Positions 15,985 through 36,499 of a stretch of DNA of 64,000 nucleotides are shown here, one piece after another. Every line of letters begins with the position of its first letter. The first letter of the stretch is position 1. The DNA comes from an uncultured Pelagibacteraceae bacterium (GTDB lineage: Bacteria > Pseudomonadota > Alphaproteobacteria > Pelagibacterales > Pelagibacteraceae): positions 1 through 64,000 of the forward strand of contig CACCEJ010000001.1 of assembly GCA_902545035.1 (NCBI GenBank), read 5' to 3'. The notes below the pieces were generated by a model that did not search any database, had not been told where the DNA came from, and worked only from the letters and a program-made list of their open reading frames with translations. Made by a program: the position numbers and the translations under genes.

Positions 15985-16500
15985 ATGACAACAATAGTAT
16001 TAGTTAGAAAAAACAATGAAGTAGTAGTTGCTGGTGATGGCCAAGTTAGTATGGGAAACACTGTTATTAAGAAAACTGCTAACAAAGTCCGTAAGATTGA
16101 GAAAAGAAATGTGATCGCAGGATTTGCTGGATCTACAGCAGACGCACTAACATTATTTGAAAGATTAGAGTCCAAGCTAGAGAAACATGCTGGAAATTTG
16201 GCAAGAGCAGCTGTTGAATTGGCTAAAGATTGGCGAACCGATAAATATTTAAGAAGATTAGAAGCTCTTATGGCTGTTGGTGATAAGGAAAATAGTTTCA
16301 TTATTTCAGGAACTGGCGATGTTTTAGAACCTGAGGGAGACGTCATTGGGATAGGATCTGGTGGAAATTATGCACTAGCTTCAGCTAAAGTATTAATGGA
16401 TACTGATTTATCCGCAGAAGAAATTGCAAAAAAAGCAATACAAGTTGCATCTGAAATATGTGTATTTACAAATGATAATTTAAATATTGAGAAAATTTAA
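15985..16500 (+). CDS. hslV: ATP-dependent protease subunit HslV
   Basis: [24 protein letters not shown] catalytic N-terminal Thr; followed by hslU. Confidence 0.97.
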
Positions 16501-16501
16501 C

Positions 16502-17872
16502 ATGGAAAAATCAAACGTAACGACTCTTCCAAATACTAAAGTAAAAAAAGAAAATAGTAGCATTCAGAATTCATTATCTCCAAGAGAAATAGTTTCAGAA
16601 TTGGATAGATTTGTTGTTGGACAAAATAATGCAAAAAGAGCCGTTGCAATTGCTTTGAGAAATAGATGGAGAAGACAGGCTTTGGAAGGAGATATGAAAG
16701 ATGAAGTTCTTCCAAAAAATATTTTAATGATGGGACCAACTGGTGTTGGTAAAACAGAAATATCTAGAAGGTTATCGAAACTGGCTGAAGCACCATTTGT
16801 AAAAGTTGAAGCTACAAGATTTACTGAAGTAGGTTACGTTGGAAGAGACGTTGAACAAATAATTAGAGATCTTTTAGAAATTGCTATCGCAATGGAAAAA
16901 GTAAAGAAAAGAAAAGAAGTTCACGCAAAAGCACAAAAGTTAGCAGAAGACAGGGTGCTCGACGCAATTGTTGGAAATAAAGCAAGTGTTGCAACAAGAG
17001 AAAGTTTTAGAAAAAGATTAAGAGATGGCGATTTAGATGATAATGAAATAGAAATTGCTGTTACTGAAGGTGGTGGTGGAATGCCATCATTTGAAATTCC
17101 TGGAATGCCTGGAGCAAATGTTGGAATGATAAATATTTCTGACATGCTTGGAAAATCAATGGGCCAAAAACCTAAGAAGAAAAAAATGTCAGTTAAAGAG
17201 TCTCATGAAATATTACTTAATGAAGAGGCAGATAAATTAATAGAACAAGACAAAATTATAAAATCTGCAAAAAATACAACTGAGAACAATGGAATCGTAT
17301 TTTTAGACGAAATAGATAAGATATCAGCTAGAACCGATAGAGTTGGTGGAGACGTATCAAGGGAAGGTGTTCAAAGAGACTTACTTCCACTTATTGAAGG
17401 AACAACAGTAAGTACTAAATATGGCCCGATTAAAACTGACCACATATTATTTATTGCTTCTGGTGCGTTCCAATTAGCAAAACCATCAGATCTTTTGCCT
17501 GAGCTTCAAGGAAGACTACCAATAAGAGTTGAGCTAGATGCATTGAATAGTGAGGATTTTAAGCGAATTTTAAAAGAGCCAGACAATAGTTTGATTAAAC
17601 AGTACAAAGCATTACTTAAAACTGAAAATGTTGATTTAGAATTTACTGAGGATGGAATTGATACAATTGCGACAATAGCAAGTGAAGTAAATACTACTGT
17701 CGAAAATATTGGGGCTAGAAGACTGCACACTATTATTGAAAGAGTTTTAGATGAAATTAGTTTTACAGCAACGGACCGAGCTGGAGAAACAATCAGTATA
17801 GACTCGGAATATATTAAGAAAAATATTGGTGAACTAGTTAAAGACGCTGATCTTTCAAAATTTATATTGTAA
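16502..17872 (+). CDS. hslU: HslU ATPase subunit
   Basis: [35 protein letters not shown]; Walker [14 protein letters not shown]; start set at ATG 16502. Confidence 0.98.
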
Positions 17873-18941: not shown

Positions 18942-19364
18942 ATGAACACAGCAATAATTCTAATTTTAGGGATCCCTCTCATTGAAATCTATTTATTCAT
19001 TAAAGTTGGCTCACAAATTGGAGCTTTAAACACGATATTGTTAATAATTACAACTGCAGTTGTTGGTATTTGGTATGCAAGATATGAAGGTTTTAATACC
19101 TTACGATCTGGCATGTCTCAATTGGTCAAAAATGAAGTTCCACTATATGAAATAGTTTCTGGAGCAGCAATTACATTTGCAGCTTTACTTTTAATTATCC
19201 CTGGTTTCGCAACAGACATTATTGGGATACTGCTAATCTTTCCAATAACAAGGAGAATAATACTTAATAAATACTCAAAAAAATACCCATCAAAGAAAAA
19301 AACTGAAGAAAAAAATTTCATAGAAGGCGAATATGAGGATATAGAAGATAAAGATGGAAGATAA
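18942..19364 (+). CDS. fxsA: FxsA family membrane protein
   Basis: GIPLIEIYLFIKVGSQIGALNTILLIITTAVVG...AALLLIIPGFATDIIG. Confidence 0.93.
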   Translation: MNTAIILILGIPLIEIYLFIKVGSQIGALNTILLIITTAVVGIWYARYEGFNTLRSGMSQLVKNEVPLYEIVSGAAITFAALLLIIPGFATDIIGILLIFPITRRIILNKYSKKYPSKKKTEEKNFIEGEYEDIEDKDGR

Positions 19365-19776
19365 ATACAAAATAATATTAAGTTATATTCAAGATTTGTC
19401 AGTTGAAATACCAAGTCCTGAAGCTTTAATTACAATTAGAAACACTATTCCAGAGTATCAGGTAAAAGTTGATTTAAAATCAAAACCTTTAAAGAGAAAA
19501 ATGATAGAAGTTTTAACAACATTAACTTACGAAAACCCAAATCAAAAAAAAGAGAGAGGATTTTTTCAGATAAAATATGCAACTGCTATTGAAATCACAG
19601 ATGTTCAAATTAAAAAAGAAGAACTGGAAAAGATAGTATTGTGTGACCTGCAAACAAAGATTTATCCAGAATTAGAGGACAAATTTTTAACTATACTTAG
19701 ACAATCAGGACTTCCTGATCTCAAATTTGGTTCAAAGATAGATTTTGAGAAACTTTACAAAAAAAGATTAAGCTAA
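19354..19776 (+). CDS. secB: SecB-like protein-export chaperone
   Basis: Divergent SecB fold pattern and the conserved neighbourhood fxsA-secB / dnaQ. Confidence 0.7.
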   Translation: MEDKYKIILSYIQDLSVEIPSPEALITIRNTIPEYQVKVDLKSKPLKRKMIEVLTTLTYENPNQKKERGFFQIKYATAIEITDVQIKKEELEKIVLCDLQTKIYPELEDKFLTILRQSGLPDLKFGSKIDFEKLYKKRLS

Positions 19777-22797: not shown

Positions 22798-23378
22798 TTT
22801 TGAAGTTCTAGATATTCCTTAATTTTTTTAATAGGTAAGCCCATTATAGTGTTTTCATCGCCATCAATTTTTGAAAACAGAGTTCTTCCTTCTCCCTCAA
22901 TTTGATAAACATTATAAGCATACAAAGCTTCATCACTTATCTTATTTAGATAAGTGATTAATTCATTTTCAGAAAAATTCTTCATGGTCAAGTATGCTTT
23001 ATCAGTATAGTTCCAAACCATGGATCCATTTTTAGATATACATACCGAACTAATCAAAGAGTGTTTTTTTCCATTAAGTTTTTTTAAAATGTTTAAAGCC
23101 TCTTCCCTGCTTTCTGGTTTTGATATTAATTCCCCAGTCAGATCGATTACGCTATCTGCTCCTAAAACTAGAGTATTATTAATTTTTTGACTAATCTTAT
23201 TTGCTTTTAATTCTGCAAGATTTTTAGAAATAATTTCAGGCGAAGCTCCCTCTTTTAATAGACTTTCTTTTATTGGATCCTCGTCAACATTTGATACTTC
23301 AACATTACAATTGATGTTGTGATTGTCTAATATTTCTTTTCTTACCTTGCTTTTTGAGGCTAAAATAATGTTAGGCAT
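22794..23378 (-). CDS. maf: Maf-like nucleoside triphosphate pyrophosphatase
   Basis: NIILASKSKVRKEIL; LVLGADSVIDL; start trimmed to MPNIILASKS. Confidence 0.95.
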   Translation of the reverse strand: MPNIILASKSKVRKEILDNHNINCNVEVSNVDEDPIKESLLKEGASPEIISKNLAELKANKISQKINNTLVLGADSVIDLTGELISKPESREEALNILKKLNGKKHSLISSVCISKNGSMVWNYTDKAYLTMKNFSENELITYLNKISDEALYAYNVYQIEGEGRTLFSKIDGDENTIMGLPIKKIKEYLELQK

Positions 23379-24198
23379 TTTTTTTATTTTTAATTTCATA
23401 AATTTTAATTACAGATGCTGCTGTTTCTTCAACTGATTTTCTAGTTACATCTATTGTAGGCCAATTATTTTCTTTAAATATTTTTTTAGAACTATTTAAT
23501 TCATCCCTAATTTTGTCTATATTTACGTACTCACTATTTTGATCTTCTTTAAGAGAGTTTAATCTATTTTTTCTTAAATCATATAATCTCTCAGCTTCAG
23601 TCACTAAACCGACAACACAGGGAGAAAAATTTTTTTCTGTAACCTTTGACGGAATTGAATTTTTATTTACTAATGGGATATTTGAAATTTTAAAACCTCT
23701 ATTAGCTAAATAAATGGCTGTTGGAGTTTTACTTGTCCTGCTTACTCCTAGCAGAATGATATCGGATTTTTCTATATCATCAGTTTGATTACCATCATCA
23801 TGATTCATAGTAAATTGAATAGCTTCAATTCTATCGTAGTATTCTTCATTTAAAATGTGTTGACCGCTCGGTTGATGCGAAGCTTTTTGGTTAAGAACTT
23901 TTGAAAAATTTAATATTAAATCTCCTAGAACACCAAAACATGGTATTTCTCTCTCATAAGCTTTTTCTACAAGATACTTTGCAAGCTTACTATTAACTAT
24001 TGTATATAGAATTATAGAATTTTCATCTTTCTTAGCTTGTTTTAATATACTCAAAGTTTGACTTTCAGTACGAGTAAAAGAAAAGTGATTAGTTTCATAC
24101 TCAAAATTAGGAAATTGAGCCTTTAACGCCAAAAAAATCCTATCCAGTGTCTCTCCAGTAGAATCAGATATTAAGTAAATTTGGTATAAGTTTCTCAT
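23371..24198 (-). CDS. ppsR: pyruvate, phosphate dikinase / PEP synthase regulatory protein (DUF299 kinase-phosphorylase)
   Basis: YLISDSTGETLDRI; ILLGVSRTSKTPTAIYLANRG. Confidence 0.95.
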   Translation of the reverse strand: MRNLYQIYLISDSTGETLDRIFLALKAQFPNFEYETNHFSFTRTESQTLSILKQAKKDENSIILYTIVNSKLAKYLVEKAYEREIPCFGVLGDLILNFSKVLNQKASHQPSGQHILNEEYYDRIEAIQFTMNHDDGNQTDDIEKSDIILLGVSRTSKTPTAIYLANRGFKISNIPLVNKNSIPSKVTEKNFSPCVVGLVTEAERLYDLRKNRLNSLKEDQNSEYVNIDKIRDELNSSKKIFKENNWPTIDVTRKSVEETAASVIKIYEIKNKKNA

Positions 24199-24482
24199 GT
24201 ATAAGATGTTTATAAACTATTAGTAAAATAAGAAAAATGCAGATTTATTCTTTGAACTAATAGAAGTTAGTATTTTTCATATAAAATTAACTGAATTATA
24301 AATTTAGATCATAGTTATTCAAATTGTATATAAAATATACAGATTATTAAATTATCCCTTAATTATCTTATTTATTTAAGATAAAAATTGTTGATAATTA
24401 GTTAATTAAGTGTGGAAATTGACTAATTTACGTTATTCACAATACATAATACTAATAAAGTAAATAATATATATCTATTTAT
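24199..24482. other. candidate chromosomal replication origin (oriC)
   Basis: 284 bp extremely AT-rich non-coding gap between ppsR/maf and hemE. TTATTCACA at 24433-24441 matches DnaA-box TTATNCACA; TTATCAACA (minus) 24389-24397 and TTATTCAAA 24315-24323 are one mismatch away; weak box ATTTCCACA (minus) 24411-24419. Flanking genes diverge. Confidence 0.75.
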
Positions 24483-25484
24483 ATGAGTCCCTTAACTAAT
24501 TGTATTAAAAATAAAGATACGAAAACTAATCCTATATGGTTAATGAGACAAGCTGGAAGGTATCTTCCGGAATTTAGAGAAATTAGAAAACAAAATCAAG
24601 ACTTTATAAAACTTTGTTTAAATAGTGATTTAGCATCTGAAATAACTCTCCAACCTATAAAAAGATTTGGATTCGATGGTGCAGTAATATTTTCAGATAT
24701 TTTAATGATACCATATGGACTTGGACAAAAAGTAGAATTTGAAAAAAATTTTGGGCCAAAATTGGGAGATATAAATTTAGAAAAAATAAAAAATGTTGAT
24801 GAAATAAGTTTTACTGAAAAAGTCTACAAAGTTTATAAAGCAATCTCAAAAACGTCGGTAGATTCTTTAATGAGCAGTAGAGATATGATTGGATTTGTTG
24901 GAGCTCCTTGGACTATTTTGGTTTATATGATAAATCAGTCCTCTCCAAAAAAAGGTTTATCAAGTGATTTTTTTAAAGATGATTTTTTAATTAATAGATT
25001 ACTAGGCATAATAGAGAAATTTTTAAAACTTCATATAAAAAATCAAATTGAGGCTGGAGCTCAAGTTATTCAAATCTTTGATAGTTGGGCTGGATTATTA
25101 GAAGATAAAATTCCAGAGTACATATATATACCTACTCTTAATGTTGTCGAATATGTAAAAGAGTTAGGTGTTCCAGTTATTTGTTTTCCTAGAGGTATTA
25201 AAGATTATAAAAATTTTTGTGAAATTGTTAAACCTGACGCTGTAAATATAGATTACGATGTTGACCCAAAAAAAATAGTCAATGAGATCAAAATACCAAT
25301 ACAAGGCGGTCTTGACCCAAAAATATTACTAACTGATCAAAAAACCCTTAAAATAGAAGTTGAAAAATATCTTGGTGTTTTTAAAGACCACCCATACATT
25401 TTTAATTTAGGTCATGGAATACTTCCTGAGACTAAAATTGAAATGGTTGAAGAATTGATAAAGATTGTAAGAAATTTTAAATGA
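24483..25484 (+). CDS. hemE: uroporphyrinogen decarboxylase
   Basis: PIWLMRQAGRYLPEFREIR. Confidence 0.98.
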   Translation: MSPLTNCIKNKDTKTNPIWLMRQAGRYLPEFREIRKQNQDFIKLCLNSDLASEITLQPIKRFGFDGAVIFSDILMIPYGLGQKVEFEKNFGPKLGDINLEKIKNVDEISFTEKVYKVYKAISKTSVDSLMSSRDMIGFVGAPWTILVYMINQSSPKKGLSSDFFKDDFLINRLLGIIEKFLKLHIKNQIEAGAQVIQIFDSWAGLLEDKIPEYIYIPTLNVVEYVKELGVPVICFPRGIKDYKNFCEIVKPDAVNIDYDVDPKKIVNEIKIPIQGGLDPKILLTDQKTLKIEVEKYLGVFKDHPYIFNLGHGILPETKIEMVEELIKIVRNFK

Positions 25485-28345: not shown

Positions 28346-30043
28346 ATGTTAGATCAAAATTTTCAAAGAACAATTTCAGATTTATTCTCAAGGAAAAGAT
28401 ATAATGATGTGATTATTAAGGTTGAGGAATATTCCAATATTGAAAACAGACCTGGTGGCCTCTCATCTTTAATTGGGGTATGTAAAATGCTTAAATCAAA
28501 TTATACAGAAGAAGATGTAATATCTGCACTATCTGATTTTGAAGATGCATACAAAAAATTAAAAACACACTTTGCAGGTATTGAAGCATTGGGAAATTAT
28601 ATCACTGCTTGTATACGTAATTCTCAAAAATATTTAAGGATAATAGATTACCTTGAAAATGCTAAAACTATGTTTGATGAGGCAGAAAAAAATTTTCCAT
28701 ATAATGAAAAGTTATATTTAAGTGGTGTAGATTTATATAAGTACTTACTAAATCCAAAAAAAGTTCTTCAATTATCAAAAGAAGTTTTAAAAAACAATCC
28801 TAAATTAAAAATTAATGCATGCACTTATGGAATGATGAATAATTATTTATATGATTGGGGTATAAAAGATTATTTTGAATATTCAAAAAGTTTCAAAAAT
28901 TATTTTCCTAAACTTAAAGTGATTGATTTAAAAGATATTGATTACAAAAAAAATAATAAAATTAAAATAGGATTTGTATCACCTGATTTTGTGGTAAATC
29001 ATTCAGTGACATATTTTGTAAAAAATACAATAAAGAAACTAGATAAAAATATTTTTGAAGTATTTGTATACCAAATCGGTGAATCGTCTTTTTTAAAAGA
29101 ATCTTCTCAAGAGTTAAAAGATAATTCAGATTTTTGGTTTGATTTAACTAAAATATCAAATCAAGAAATAATAAATAAAATACAATATGATAAAATAGAG
29201 ATTTTATTTGACGTAATGGGCTTAACTGGTGCAAAAAAAATTGAAATATTTAATAATAGAATATGCCCCTTACAAATTTCATGGCTTGCTTTTTGTAATA
29301 CAGTTGGATTTGACGACATAGACTGTTTAGTTGCAGATAAAAATTTAATTTATGAAGAGGAAGAAAAATATTATTCAGAAAAAATTCTTAAACTTCCAGA
29401 TGTATGGAATTGCCACTCAGGATTTTCATTTAAGAGAGTTAAACCAGATTTACCATTTAATAAAAACAAATTTATTACCTTTGGCTCATTTAATAATTTT
29501 CTAAAAATTTCAGATGAAGTTGTAAGAACTTGGAGTAAAATATTAATGAAAGTTAAAAATTCTAAACTAATATTGAAATCCTCTTTTAGTTATCAAACAA
29601 AAAATATAATCTCAAAATTTAAAAAATATGGTGTTGAGAAACAATTAGAATTCTTTGATCGTCAAAACTATTCTGAGGTAGAAGATCATTTACGGTTATA
29701 TAATAATGTTGATATTGGTCTAGATACTTTTCCCTATAATGGAGTTACAACTACATTCGAGGCTCTTTGGGCAGGAGTACCAGTTCTTGTAATGAAAGGA
29801 TATAATTTCAATTCAAGATGTGGAGAAAGTATAATGAAAAATGGAAATTTAGAACATTTTATTGGCAAAAACGAGGAAGATTATATTGAAAAGGCTGTAA
29901 ACTTGGCGAGTAATAAAGACCAATTAATTTTTGAAAGACATAAAATTTTTACAGAAATACTAACTACACCATTGTATGATTCTACAAAGTTTGCTGAAGG
30001 ATTAAAAAATGAATTACTAAAAGTTTATAAAAAAAAATTATAA
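28346..30043 (+). CDS. TPR / O-GlcNAc-transferase (SPINDLY)-like glycosyltransferase
   Basis: KIKIGFVSPDFVVNHSVTYFVKN; CPLQISWLAFCNTVGFDDIDCLVAD; GLDTFPYNGVTTTFEALWAGVPVLVMKG. Confidence 0.88.
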   Translation: MLDQNFQRTISDLFSRKRYNDVIIKVEEYSNIENRPGGLSSLIGVCKMLKSNYTEEDVISALSDFEDAYKKLKTHFAGIEALGNYITACIRNSQKYLRIIDYLENAKTMFDEAEKNFPYNEKLYLSGVDLYKYLLNPKKVLQLSKEVLKNNPKLKINACTYGMMNNYLYDWGIKDYFEYSKSFKNYFPKLKVIDLKDIDYKKNNKIKIGFVSPDFVVNHSVTYFVKNTIKKLDKNIFEVFVYQIGESSFLKESSQELKDNSDFWFDLTKISNQEIINKIQYDKIEILFDVMGLTGAKKIEIFNNRICPLQISWLAFCNTVGFDDIDCLVADKNLIYEEEEKYYSEKILKLPDVWNCHSGFSFKRVKPDLPFNKNKFITFGSFNNFLKISDEVVRTWSKILMKVKNSKLILKSSFSYQTKNIISKFKKYGVEKQLEFFDRQNYSEVEDHLRLYNNVDIGLDTFPYNGVTTTFEALWAGVPVLVMKGYNFNSRCGESIMKNGNLEHFIGKNEEDYIEKAVNLASNKDQLIFERHKIFTEILTTPLYDSTKFAEGLKNELLKVYKKKL

Positions 30044-30892
30044 GTATTTTAATTCTTCCATTTCTTTTTTAAATTTTCTTTCTATATCTTCTTTTATTTC
30101 TAAATCCAACAAATTCTCCCATTTATTGTTTGGTCCTAAATTAAAAAATTTTTTAGTTTCACCAGTTTCTTTATTTTTTACAGCTTCATTAAAACCATAT
30201 TTTTTTTCAATCCTTTTTAAATTTTCAAATTCATTTGATTTTATGGAAAGATTAATTTTGTTATCGTCTATTTTTAAATTAAGCAAGTTTGATACATAAT
30301 CCGAAATTTTTCTGAATTCTTCATTTGGATTTGAGACTAAATTTTCATATTTTATTAAAAGATAATTATTTTTGAAATTTTTCCAAGAATTATAATGAGT
30401 TTTCCATGAAGTGATAAGTGTAAACATATCTTTATTAACACTTGGACTGTCTGGTTTAAATTTTTTTCCTAATGCTCTTTTTTCATCAAACAAAAAATCT
30501 TTGGCTTCAAAATAATTTTTTTTGGAATAGTGGTATAAGATCGAACTTATTACATTTCTTGGGTCTCTCACTATATGAATTACTCCTAATGAGTTATCGT
30601 AATTTGTAAAATTAGAGCCACCAATTTTTATTAAAGCATGGTGTGTTTTAAAAAATTTAATTTTTTTATCACTGTTAATAAGGCTTTGCGATTTAGACCA
30701 ATTTAATGAAATTTCTTTAATATCATCTATATTTTTTACAAGATTATTAAAATGTGATCTTAGAGGATACTGAGATATATTTGAAATAGCACTTAAAACT
30801 TCATCATTTTTTTTATCATACAATAAAGATGTCAAAAAAGATCGAACCCAAGTATTTCCACTTTTTGGATATGAAGCTAGCCATATAATCAT
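30038..30892 (-). CDS. sulfotransferase domain protein (Sulfotransfer_1 type)
   Basis: IIWLASYPKSGNTWVRSFLTSLLY; HIVRDPRNVISSILYHYSK. Confidence 0.9.
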   Translation of the reverse strand: MIIWLASYPKSGNTWVRSFLTSLLYDKKNDEVLSAISNISQYPLRSHFNNLVKNIDDIKEISLNWSKSQSLINSDKKIKFFKTHHALIKIGGSNFTNYDNSLGVIHIVRDPRNVISSILYHYSKKNYFEAKDFLFDEKRALGKKFKPDSPSVNKDMFTLITSWKTHYNSWKNFKNNYLLIKYENLVSNPNEEFRKISDYVSNLLNLKIDDNKINLSIKSNEFENLKRIEKKYGFNEAVKNKETGETKKFFNLGPNNKWENLLDLEIKEDIERKFKKEMEELKYL

Positions 30893-32345: not shown

Positions 32346-34217
32346 ATGAAAAATGAGATATCATTTGATGTAGTTGTAATTGGTGGAGGTCATGCTGGCT
32401 GTGAAGCTGCAGCAGCATCTGCTAGATTGGGGGTAAACACTGCCTTATTCACTCATAAATTTGATACTATTGGTGAGATGTCATGCAATCCAGCTATAGG
32501 GGGATTAGGTAAAGGTCATCTTGTTAGAGAAATAGATGCACTAGATGGTGTAATGGGTGAAGTTGCAGATAAATCAGGAATACAATTTCGATTATTAAAT
32601 AGAAGCAGAGGTCCTGCAGTGCGTGGACCACGTACTCAAAGTGATAGATCATTATATAAGAAATATATGCAGGAAAAACTTGTAAACTACTGTAATTTAA
32701 GCATATTTTCTGATCCTGTAATAGAGTTTATTTTTAAAAAAAACAATATAATTGGTTTTATTACACAAGAGGGTAAAAAAGTACTATCATCTAAAGTAAT
32801 CCTTACAACTGGAACTTTTTTAAATGGTTTAATTCACATCGGTGAAGAAAAAACACCTGCAGGAAGATTTAATGAAAAACCTTCAACAGGTTTAAGTGAA
32901 CAATTAGAAAAATATAATTTTAAAATTGGAAGATTAAAAACAGGAACACCACCAAGACTGGATGCAACGACAATAAATTTCGAAAAACTCGAAGAGCAGC
33001 ATGCAGATGAAGATCCATATTTTTTTTCTTTTCTTACAAAAAAAAATATAAATAGACAGATTTCATGTAGGATGACCTATACCAATCGAGCAGTTCATGA
33101 GATCATATCTAAAAACATAAATAGTAGTGCTATGTATTCAGGAAGTATCAAAGGTATCGGCCCCAGATATTGTCCATCTATTGAAGATAAAATTGTAAAG
33201 TTTGCTGATAAGCAAAAACATCAAATATTTTTAGAGCCAGAAGGTCTAAATGATAAAACAATCTATCCAAATGGAATTTCAACTTCTCTACCTGCTGAAA
33301 TACAACAAGAAATATGTAATAATATCAATGGTTTAGAAAATGTTAAGATTTTAAGACCTGGATACGCAATAGAGTATGATTTTGTTGATCCACGGGAGCT
33401 ATTTCTAACTTTAGAGACAAAAAAAATTAAAAATCTTTACCTCGCAGGACAAATAAATGGAACAACAGGCTATGAAGAAGCTGCAGCACAAGGATTGATA
33501 GCTGGAATAAATGCTGCTCTATCTATTAAAGGAAATGAACCATTCATACTTGATAGATCCGAGGCATATATAGGTGTTATGATAGATGACTTAGTTACAA
33601 AAGGAGTTGCAGAGCCATATAGAATGTTTACCTCAAGGGCAGAATACAGGCTATCTTTGAGATCTGATAATGCGGATATTAGACTTACCCAAAAAGGAAT
33701 TAATATTGGTTTAATATTAGACGAAAGGAAAATTGTATATAAAGAGAAAGCGTATAAATTGCAAAAAAGTCTTAAAAAAATGGAAAATTCTTTAATTTCA
33801 CCTTCAAAAGTATCCAAATTTGGGATTAATATTGCGAAAGATGGGGTCAAAAGAAATGCATTAGAAATACTTAGCCAAAAATCAGTAAAAATGAGTAAAA
33901 TAAGAGAAATTTGGCCAGAGATTGAATATGTTTCACATGAAATAGATGAGCAAATTGAGATAAAAGCTCATTATAAAGGATATTTGAAGAAGCAAGCTGC
34001 AGATATTTTGGCATTTAAAAGAGATGAAAATCTTAAAATACCAGATAATTTAAATTATGACCAATTTTCTGGATTATCAAATGAGGTAAAGTCAAAATTC
34101 AAGAAAATAAAGCCAAAAACACTTGGTCAAGCACTCAGAATAGATGGGGTTACTCCAGCTGCAGTATATATTTTGTTGTCTCATGTCAAAAGAAAGTCTA
34201 TTAAGCATATAGCTTGA
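32346..34217 (+). CDS. mnmG: tRNA uridine-5-carboxymethylaminomethyl modification enzyme MnmG
   Basis: [47 protein letters not shown]. Confidence 0.98.
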
Positions 34218-34858
34218 TTGATTCGAAAATAATAAAAAAAGAGAAAATTTATCTCCCAAATGTTTCACGTGAAACATTAATGGAACTTGAGGACTATTCA
34301 AATTCAATTTTAAATAAAAATAGGAAAATTAATTTGATAAGTTCAAGTACAGAAAAATCAATAAATTCAAGGCATATAACAGATAGTGCACAAACCATTG
34401 AATTTATTGATAAAAATGACATTAAGGTTTGTACTGATCTTGGATCAGGCGCAGGGCTTCCTAGTATAGTTTTGGGTATTTTGATGAAATCTAAAAAACA
34501 AGGTTTTAAGCTAATTTTTTATGAAAAGAGTTATCATAAAAGCAATTTCCTAAAAGAAATGGCAAAAAAATTCAAATTAGAAGCTAAAATTTATCAAAAA
34601 AATATTTTTGAGGAAAAAAACTTAGTTACTGATGTAATAATTTGTCGAGCGTTTAAACCTTTGCCTGTGATTTTTGATATTGCGACAAAAAATTTTAAAA
34701 ATTTTAAATACATAGTCATGTATTTAGGCAAGAGTGGAAAAAAAATTTTGGAAGATGTTTCCAAAAAATGGAAATTTGATGTAGAGAAAATGAAAAGCAT
34801 TACTAATGAAGAGTCATCAGTAGTTAAAATTTCAAATTTAAAAAAAAAATATGAATAG
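34214..34858 (+). CDS. rsmG: 16S rRNA (guanine527-N7)-methyltransferase
   Basis: [40 protein letters not shown]; between mnmG and parA. Confidence 0.95.
34261..34276. promoter_or_regulatory. parS centromere site
   Basis: Perfect 16-bp palindrome TGTTTCACGTGAAACA matching the canonical ParB-binding parS consensus; inside rsmG. Confidence 0.95.
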
Positions 34859-35651
34859 AAAAATTATTTCGATCATAAACCAAAAAGGTGGAGTGGGTAA
34901 GACCACTACAGTAATTAATCTTGCTGCTGGTTTAACAATGAAAGGAAAAAAAATTCTTGTAATTGATCTTGATCCACAAGGAAATGCTACAACAGGTCTA
35001 GGATTATCCAACGCAACTAGTTCTGATCGAACAATTTACAATGTTTTAAATGGAAGTAAAAAAATTTCAGAGGTGGTTCAGTCTACAAGCTTCAAAAATT
35101 TAGATTTAATATCTTCGAATGTTGATTTATCAGGATTAGAGGTTGAGACAGCTGGCGACAATAGAAGAGCCTTTAAACTAAAAGATGAATTAAGCGCTAT
35201 TTTAAACAATTCTGGGCCATCCTATGATTACATCATTATTGACTGCCCACCATCCTTAAGTCTACTTACAATCATGGCATTGGTAGCTTCTGATGCTCTT
35301 GTTGTGCCTCTCCAGACTGAATTTTTTGCGTTAGAGGGTCTTACACAGCTCTTAAAAACAATCGATAGGATAAAGTCAAACTTAAATCCATCTTTAGAGA
35401 TAAGAGGAATACTTCTAACTATGTATGATAAGAGAAATAAATTATCTGGTGAAGTTGAGACAGAGGCAAGAAATTATTTTAAGGATAAAGTCTACAGTAC
35501 AGCAGTACCAAGAAATGTTAGATTATCAGAAGCTCCTTCACATGGCGTACCGGTTTTAATTTATGACAAGGTTTGTCCAGGTAGTAGAGCATATTTTAGT
35601 TTCACAGATGAATTTTTAAATCAAGATAAACCAGTGGAGAGTGCAGCATGA
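34851..35651 (+). CDS. parA: chromosome partitioning ATPase ParA/Soj
   Basis: KIISIINQKGGVGKTTTVINLAAGL deviant Walker A. Confidence 0.98.
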   Translation: MNRKIISIINQKGGVGKTTTVINLAAGLTMKGKKILVIDLDPQGNATTGLGLSNATSSDRTIYNVLNGSKKISEVVQSTSFKNLDLISSNVDLSGLEVETAGDNRRAFKLKDELSAILNNSGPSYDYIIIDCPPSLSLLTIMALVASDALVVPLQTEFFALEGLTQLLKTIDRIKSNLNPSLEIRGILLTMYDKRNKLSGEVETEARNYFKDKVYSTAVPRNVRLSEAPSHGVPVLIYDKVCPGSRAYFSFTDEFLNQDKPVESAA

Positions 35652-36499
35652 TAAATCCGTTTAAATCAAAAAAAGGACTTGGAAGAGGATTATCTTCCTT
35701 GATAGGAGATAGCGACAAAATTGATGATAAAAAAAATGTTTCAATCAGTTCATTAGTTAGAAATAAGTATCAACCAAGAAAAAAATTTGATGAATTGAGT
35801 TTAGAAGAATTAACTAATTCTATAAGAGAGAGGGGTATTATCCAACCTATAATAGTTAGACCATCTCCTGATAAGGAAGATAAATTTGAAATAATAGCTG
35901 GTGAAAGAAGATGGCAAGCTGCACAATATGCTGGACTGCATCAGGTACCAGTGGTTGTAATTAATGCAGACAATCTTAAATCCTTAGAGTTTGCTATTGT
36001 TGAAAATGTTCAAAGAAAAGATTTAAATCCAATTGAGGAAGCAGAAGGTTACAAAAGGCTTATTGATGAATTCAGTTATGATCAAGATAAAGTGTCTAAA
36101 TTTATTGGTAAAAGCAGAGCACATATATCTAATTGTTTACGATTATTATCTCTTCCACAAGAAATTATTGAATTAATAATTAAGGAGAAATTATCCCAAG
36201 GTCATGCAAAAATTTTAGTTGGTTTAGATAATGCTTTACTTTTAGCGAAAAAAATTATTAAAAAAAAATTATCTGTTAGACAAGCTGAGAATTTAGTACG
36301 AATGTTAAAAACAAATTCTAACAGCCTAAGTATGAGAAAAGATCCAAACATTATAAGCCTCGAGGAAGAGTTAACAGATAAAATTGGAATGAGAGTTTTT
36401 GTTAAAAATAAAAAAAATAATTCTGGTACTATTAGTTTAGAGTATAAAGGTGCAGATCAACTTGATAGATTGGTAGAGATTATTAAGCAAAACTATTAA
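35648..36499 (+). CDS. parB: chromosome partitioning protein ParB/Spo0J
   Basis: GLGRGLSSLIGD; GERRWQAAQYAGLHQVPV; ENVQRKDLNPIEEAEGYKRL. Confidence 0.98.
   Translation: MINPFKSKKGLGRGLSSLIGDSDKIDDKKNVSISSLVRNKYQPRKKFDELSLEELTNSIRERGIIQPIIVRPSPDKEDKFEIIAGERRWQAAQYAGLHQVPVVVINADNLKSLEFAIVENVQRKDLNPIEEAEGYKRLIDEFSYDQDKVSKFIGKSRAHISNCLRLLSLPQEIIELIIKEKLSQGHAKILVGLDNALLLAKKIIKKKLSVRQAENLVRMLKTNSNSLSMRKDPNIISLEEELTDKIGMRVFVKNKKNNSGTISLEYKGADQLDRLVEIIKQNY

Follow-up and report, generated by a model that had tools for sequence, protein, structure and literature searches.

Known origins beside hemE and the locus studied here

The replication origins of Caulobacter and Rickettsia are flanked by hemE and by a gene of family COG1806 (PMC1914354), and the elements of this origin class need not all occur in all genomes (PMC1914354). 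Within origins, a basal unwinding system has been described that consists of a DnaA box, a short spacer (its GC-rich part averaging 4 bp), and at least three DnaA-trios, whose central base on the opposite strand is a conserved A (consensus 3'-GAT-5', read as 5'-CTA-3' on the box strand) (PMC8287927, PMC8235120, PMC7561715). SAR11 bacteria are among the most abundant marine cells. Our literature search found no experimentally defined SAR11 origin and no paper naming the origin locus; SAR11 coverage studies describe a V-shaped profile, and the portion of their text available to us gives no gene at the peak.

We analyzed a 64,000-nucleotide stretch of DNA (the window) that forms the start of a 118,333-bp contig in a 1.02-Mb Pelagibacteraceae assembly of 40 contigs and 71% completeness. 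Related loci belong to the Pelagibacteraceae, i.e., SAR11 (Pelagibacterales). One of them, from AG-337-G04, is 89% identical to the window locus, and because that genome has been placed in SAR11 clade Ib (PMC9589681), the window probably lies in or near this clade. Chromosome-scale analyses were carried out on a complete congener (G012; 1,343,202 bp), in which the homologous gap occupies positions 1,261,949 to 1,262,209.

Judging from its position, flanking genes, DnaA boxes, putative unwinding module, and linked parS, the 284-bp gap between ppsR and hemE is very probably the single chromosomal oriC of this SAR11 bacterium (probability of about 0.94). By sequence, it is a reduced member of the known hemE/COG1806 class of alphaproteobacterial origins, reduced because no CtrA orthologue was found and because IHF and GANTC motifs are not enriched.

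An AT-rich gap of nearly constant length

The gap and its two neighbors are as follows.
23371 to 24198, minus strand: ppsR (PRK05339, COG1806/DUF299), conserved origin-flanking gene (NF003742, 296 bits against a cutoff of 225)
24199 to 24482, no strand: candidate oriC, the whole ppsR-hemE intergenic region (marked by GC content, stability, length constancy, and the GC-skew minimum)
24483 to 25484, plus strand: hemE, conserved origin-flanking gene (TIGR01464, 312 bits against a cutoff of 303)

The initial annotation had described a non-coding, extremely AT-rich gap of 284 bp, and this length is exact (24199 to 24482). Its GC content is 16.5%, compared with 28.5% for the window, and only 0.17% of 284-bp windows have a lower value; few stretches of this length in the window are less stable. 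Raised AT content is a trait of the hemE/COG1806 origin class. Both flanking genes are conserved at all 109 loci where hemE and ppsR (COG1806) were found, and gap length in these 109 loci remains between 261 and 288 bp, though HemE identity falls to 55%. In a sister family, ppsR is gone from beside hemE and maf is the neighbor; the gap there still measures ~270 to 286 bp.

Genes had also been described as mainly minus to the left of the gap and mainly plus to the right. This holds as a tendency, but exceptions exist on both sides: 15985 to 17872 and 18942 to 19776 on the left are on the plus strand, and 30038 to 30892 on the right is on the minus strand. A search for RNA families in and around the gap returned one sub-threshold chance match only. 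Farther right, the interval from 28346 to 30892 between rho and mnmE encodes a protein of 565 aa with no more than a weak glycosyltransferase match and a 284-aa minus-strand protein, for which no NCBIfam match was found.

DnaA boxes are local to the gap and conserved in position

To score conservation, a box was counted at an aligned position when it had at most one mismatch to TTATN[AC]ACA, across 36 diverged loci. The corresponding positions in the window are listed here.
24207 to 24215, minus strand: left DnaA box TTATAAACA, beside the ppsR start (box here in 30 of 36 diverged loci)
24315 to 24323, plus strand: weak DnaA-like box TTATTCAAA, one mismatch (12 of 36)
24389 to 24397, minus strand: DnaA box TTATCAACA, first of a minus-strand array with 11-bp steps (25 of 36)
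24400 to 24408, minus strand: degenerate second array position TAATTAACT, two mismatches in the window's own copy (18 of 36)
24411 to 24419, minus strand: degenerate third array position ATTTCCACA (18 of 36)
24433 to 24441, plus strand: main DnaA box TTATTCACA (34 of 36, with 23 exact to TTATN[AC]ACA)

The full DnaA-box match reported earlier at 24433 to 24441 is real: the 118-kb contig has just two strict TTATNCACA sites, and TTATTCACA is one of them. The weaker boxes reported with it were likewise recovered, with one mismatch each at 24315 to 24323 and 24389 to 24397 and two mismatches at 24411 to 24419, and we found two more one-mismatch sites, both on the minus strand, at 24207 to 24215 and 24325 to 24333. 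The gap thus holds five sites with at most one mismatch, compared with 0.61 in dinucleotide shuffles (P value of ~0.0005), and one strict site (P value = 0.019). Over the whole window, neither strict nor one-mismatch boxes exceed chance, so the box signal is local to the gap. The window's own copy has a single strict box and two degenerate array positions, and a plus-strand box found at the position of 24284 in 24 of the 36 diverged loci has been lost from it.

The three minus-strand boxes (24389, 24400, and 24411) are spaced by exactly 11 bp. In 41 diverged gaps, TTATN[AC]ACA occurs 106 times, compared with 7.7 in shuffles (~14-fold), and the variant TTATNAACA alone accounts for 79 occurrences versus 6.7. 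Among 65 close relatives, the best-conserved blocks are the left edge and the segment from 24417 to 24482, which holds the main box. The homologous gap of the complete congener ranks first for DnaA boxes among 155 intergenic regions that are 120 bp or longer, is the only one of them with more than one strict box, and contains the only ~300-bp window in that genome with three TTATN[AC]ACA sites.

A predicted unwinding module before hemE

Two further features lie between the main box and hemE.
24446 to 24457, plus strand: DnaA-trio tract ATA ATA CTA ATA (other strand 3'-TAT TAT GAT TAT-5'), 4 nt past the main box
24442 to 24482, no strand: predicted DNA unwinding element, comprising the trios and an AT run to the hemE start (least stable 40 bp)

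As read from its sequence, the conserved block before hemE has the layout of the “basal unwinding system” (DnaA-trio), which is a new detail for this locus. The order in the window is TTATTCACA-ATAC-ATA-ATA-CTA-ATA. Such a system takes a DnaA box with at most two mismatches, here TTATTCACA, followed, after a spacer of no more than 16 bp, by three or more trios whose central base on the filament strand is A; the spacer here is 4 nt, and there are four trios, mostly ATA and not the preferred CTA. In the diverged loci, TA is found at offsets 5, 8, 11, and 14 past the main box in 86, 75, 67, and 83% of cases, respectively, and at least four NTA triplets are present in 83 of 104 gaps. At the same position, the sister family carries the textbook CTACTACTACTA, for example, TTCACAGGTACAACTACTACTACTAT followed by TATATATA. 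Stability within the gap is lowest in the 40 bp that begin at 24442, directly after the main box, and that fall in the bottom 0.11% of the window. A perfect box with at least three in-phase NTA triplets within 10 nt occurs once in the 118-kb contig, in the gap, and once in the complete congener, in the homologous gap.

Position on the chromosome

A GC-skew minimum located elsewhere, such as near dnaA, had been named in the initial annotation as evidence that would speak against an origin at this site. The cumulative skew minimum of the 118-kb contig lies at 24,156, only 43 bp from the gap, and the proposal stands. In the complete congener, the cumulative skew is lowest at 1.23 to 1.29 Mb, a range that includes the gap, and highest at 0.616 Mb, opposite the gap, giving arms of ~646 and ~697 kb from gap to maximum. 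The skew shift typical of the hemE/COG1806 class is present at the site, its position being resolved only to tens of kilobases in the complete congener. Because divergent genes bias skew, we regressed third-position GC skew in the congener on gene strand and replichore side. The origin positions accepted by the fit (95% profile) span 1.26 to 1.32 Mb, a range that excludes dnaA at 1.199 Mb; the optimum is at 1.31 Mb, and the gap is inside the accepted set, near its edge. With forks starting from the gap, 65% of congener genes are co-directional with replication. The corresponding TA3 skew fit was too flat for locating the origin, and a search of the congener for a dif site marking the terminus gave no convincing match. 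On a 660-kb contig of the sister family, the gap, at 424 kb, falls within a broad skew valley (~340 to 460 kb) whose minimum is 38 kb away from it.

In the window's own genome, dnaA is intact and located on the same contig as hemE (position 93,050). The distance between dnaA and hemE is ~61 to 69 kb in all five genomes checked, and it is oddly stable across the two families that they represent.

A single linked parS and partition genes

The candidate partition locus comprises three features.
34261 to 34276, no strand: parS centromere-like site TGTTTCACGTGAAACA, inside the rsmG start and just before parAB (perfect palindrome)
34851 to 35651, plus strand: parA, ParA-type partition ATPase (ParA/RepA-type matches)
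35648 to 36499, plus strand: parB, ParB/Spo0J family (TIGR00180, 197.7 bits against a cutoff of 58.45)

The perfect parS, which was absent from the initial annotation, lies 9.8 kb from the gap, and parA, parB, and parS are thus all found near the candidate origin. The exact site is present in 37 of 61 genomes, always as a single copy per genome, and in 35 of the 35 genomes with hemE on the same contig it lies 7.1 to 13.5 kb downstream of hemE. In the complete congener, the best parS match in the genome is 15/16, 7.2 kb away. The variable distance from hemE to parS suggests that gene content between origin and parS changes. A second, imperfect parS (TGTTTCACATGAAATA, two mismatches) is seen at 33929 to 33944, 332 bp before the perfect one.

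CtrA, IHF, and CcrM

No CtrA orthologue was found in any of five Pelagibacterales genomes, in each of which the best full-length match was 27 to 32% identical to the query. The query, a CtrA-like sequence, was validated by its matches in 56 other alphaproteobacterial genomes, which reached 53 to 88% identity in most. TTAA-N7-TTAA (CtrA) sites are absent from the window's gap. Across relatives they occur above shuffled expectation, yet no position is shared by more than 5 of 36 diverged loci, and the sites overlap DnaA boxes. Since the positions are unconserved and CtrA is missing, the excess most probably arises incidentally from AT-rich boxes that contain TTAA, and we rejected CtrA control of the origin.

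The IHF consensus WATCAN5WTR has no match in the window's gap, and 21 matches over 104 gaps compare with 40 in shuffles. GANTC is likewise absent from the window's gap and is not enriched in gaps. On the two sides of the gap, which is itself nearly GANTC-free, GANTC occurs at the ppsR start (~38 bp inside) in 107 of 109 loci, which may reflect coding constraint, and at hemE codons 1 and 2 (24485 to 24489) in 66 of 109. Genome-wide, the congener has 0.44 of the first-order expectation for GANTC, with an intergenic density above the genome average. A CcrM-type methylase is present in the more complete relatives (see also PMC3973325).

Proposed mechanism and alternative explanations

We observe directly the sequence elements, the conservation of their positions, where the gap lies in the skew profile, and one linked parS; from these we infer DnaA binding, melting, helicase loading, and segregation at the gap. 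ATP-DnaA would bind the strong box at 24433 to 24441, assisted by the minus-strand boxes at 11-bp steps (24389, 24400, and 24411) and by the left box at 24207. A DnaA filament would extend from the strong box along the strand opposite the NTA triplets (24446 to 24457) and melt the AT run at 24442 to 24482, where the helicase would load for bidirectional replication. ParAB would separate the new origins via the parS 9.8 kb away.

It is very unlikely that the gap is only a divergent ppsR/hemE promoter, in which case the boxes would act as DnaA-regulated operators, the conserved block would be the promoter of hemE, and replication would start elsewhere in the skew valley. The conserved block does sit where one would look for a promoter, 22 to 66 bp ahead of the hemE start, but a search toward hemE found nothing resembling a sigma-70 promoter, and promoter-like sites are no more numerous than expected. 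Divergent genes alone can switch local skew, yet the switch survives strand correction. Nor would a promoter account for position-conserved boxes across the whole gap, even beside ppsR, for a sister-family gap that keeps its ~270 to 286 bp although maf replaced ppsR, or for the linked single parS. In Caulobacter, hemE promoters are located within the origin, so promoter and origin roles can coexist.

Even less probable, in our judgment, are two other sites. Many bacteria have their origin next to dnaA, which here lies on the same contig at ~93 kb and is taken as the origin marker by some growth estimators and genome alignments. However, no strict DnaA box is present near dnaA in the window's contig, no box-plus-trio module accompanies the gene, and the strand-corrected fit in the congener excludes it (statistic of ~10.5 versus 3.84). 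The other possibility, an origin farther along the skew valley toward maf/aroE and up to ~58 kb from the gap, would agree with the strand-corrected GC3 optimum at 1.31 Mb and the accepted set of 1.26 to 1.32 Mb in the congener, but every other intergenic region of the congener has at most one strict box, and the homologous gap holds the only perfect box with trios in that genome. The ppsR-hemE gap, initially put forward as a candidate oriC, is supported by skew, and the position-conserved boxes, the DnaA-trio module, and the linked single parS independently support its reading as the origin.

Implications and comparison with known systems

A specialist would expect the location; what this analysis adds is the map of the module, the variant form of the boxes, the constancy of the length, the presence of just one parS, and the missing CtrA. 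We lean slightly toward the view that SAR11 has a minimal CtrA-free, IHF-free origin of ~284 bp, with one trio module, helically phased lineage-specific TTATNAACA boxes, and one parS per chromosome. If so, DnaA alone would time initiation, perhaps together with CcrM methylation of the GANTC sites just outside the gap, and the absence of CtrA would offer a natural test of an alphaproteobacterial origin working without its usual repressor. A precise origin, unwinding site, and parS may also anchor metagenomic growth-rate (peak-to-trough) methods, some of which anchor on dnaA, here 61 to 69 kb off, and the gap could be footprinted and might serve as a component of SAR11 replicating vectors.

Compared with Caulobacter Cori and Rickettsia oriC (PMC1914354), the SAR11 gap has the same two flanking genes, AT richness, DnaA boxes, skew shift, and nearby parAB. 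It differs in being shorter (284 bp versus 383 to 404 bp), in that many of its boxes are TTATNAACA instead of TTATNCACA, and in that no CtrA orthologue was found in the order Pelagibacterales and the window's copy lacks CtrA and IHF consensus sites. The unwinding module shares with the basal unwinding system (PMC8287927, PMC6669920) the box, the 4-nt spacer, four triplets with a conserved central base on the correct strand, and an AT run after the triplets. In contrast, its spacer is AT-rich in the window (GG in the sister family), the first triplet base on the box strand is mostly A and not C, and a second tandem box is at best possible and very weak (TAATTTACG). As in ParABS segregation systems, parA, parB, and a perfect TGTTTCACGTGAAACA lie within 12 kb of the candidate origin, whereas here there is a single exact parS per genome. 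Finally, in Wolbachia, Ehrlichia, and Anaplasma (hemE-COG1253; PMC1914354), as in the SAR11 sister family, the origin stays with hemE while the other neighbor changes, the new neighbor in the sister family being maf after the loss of ppsR.
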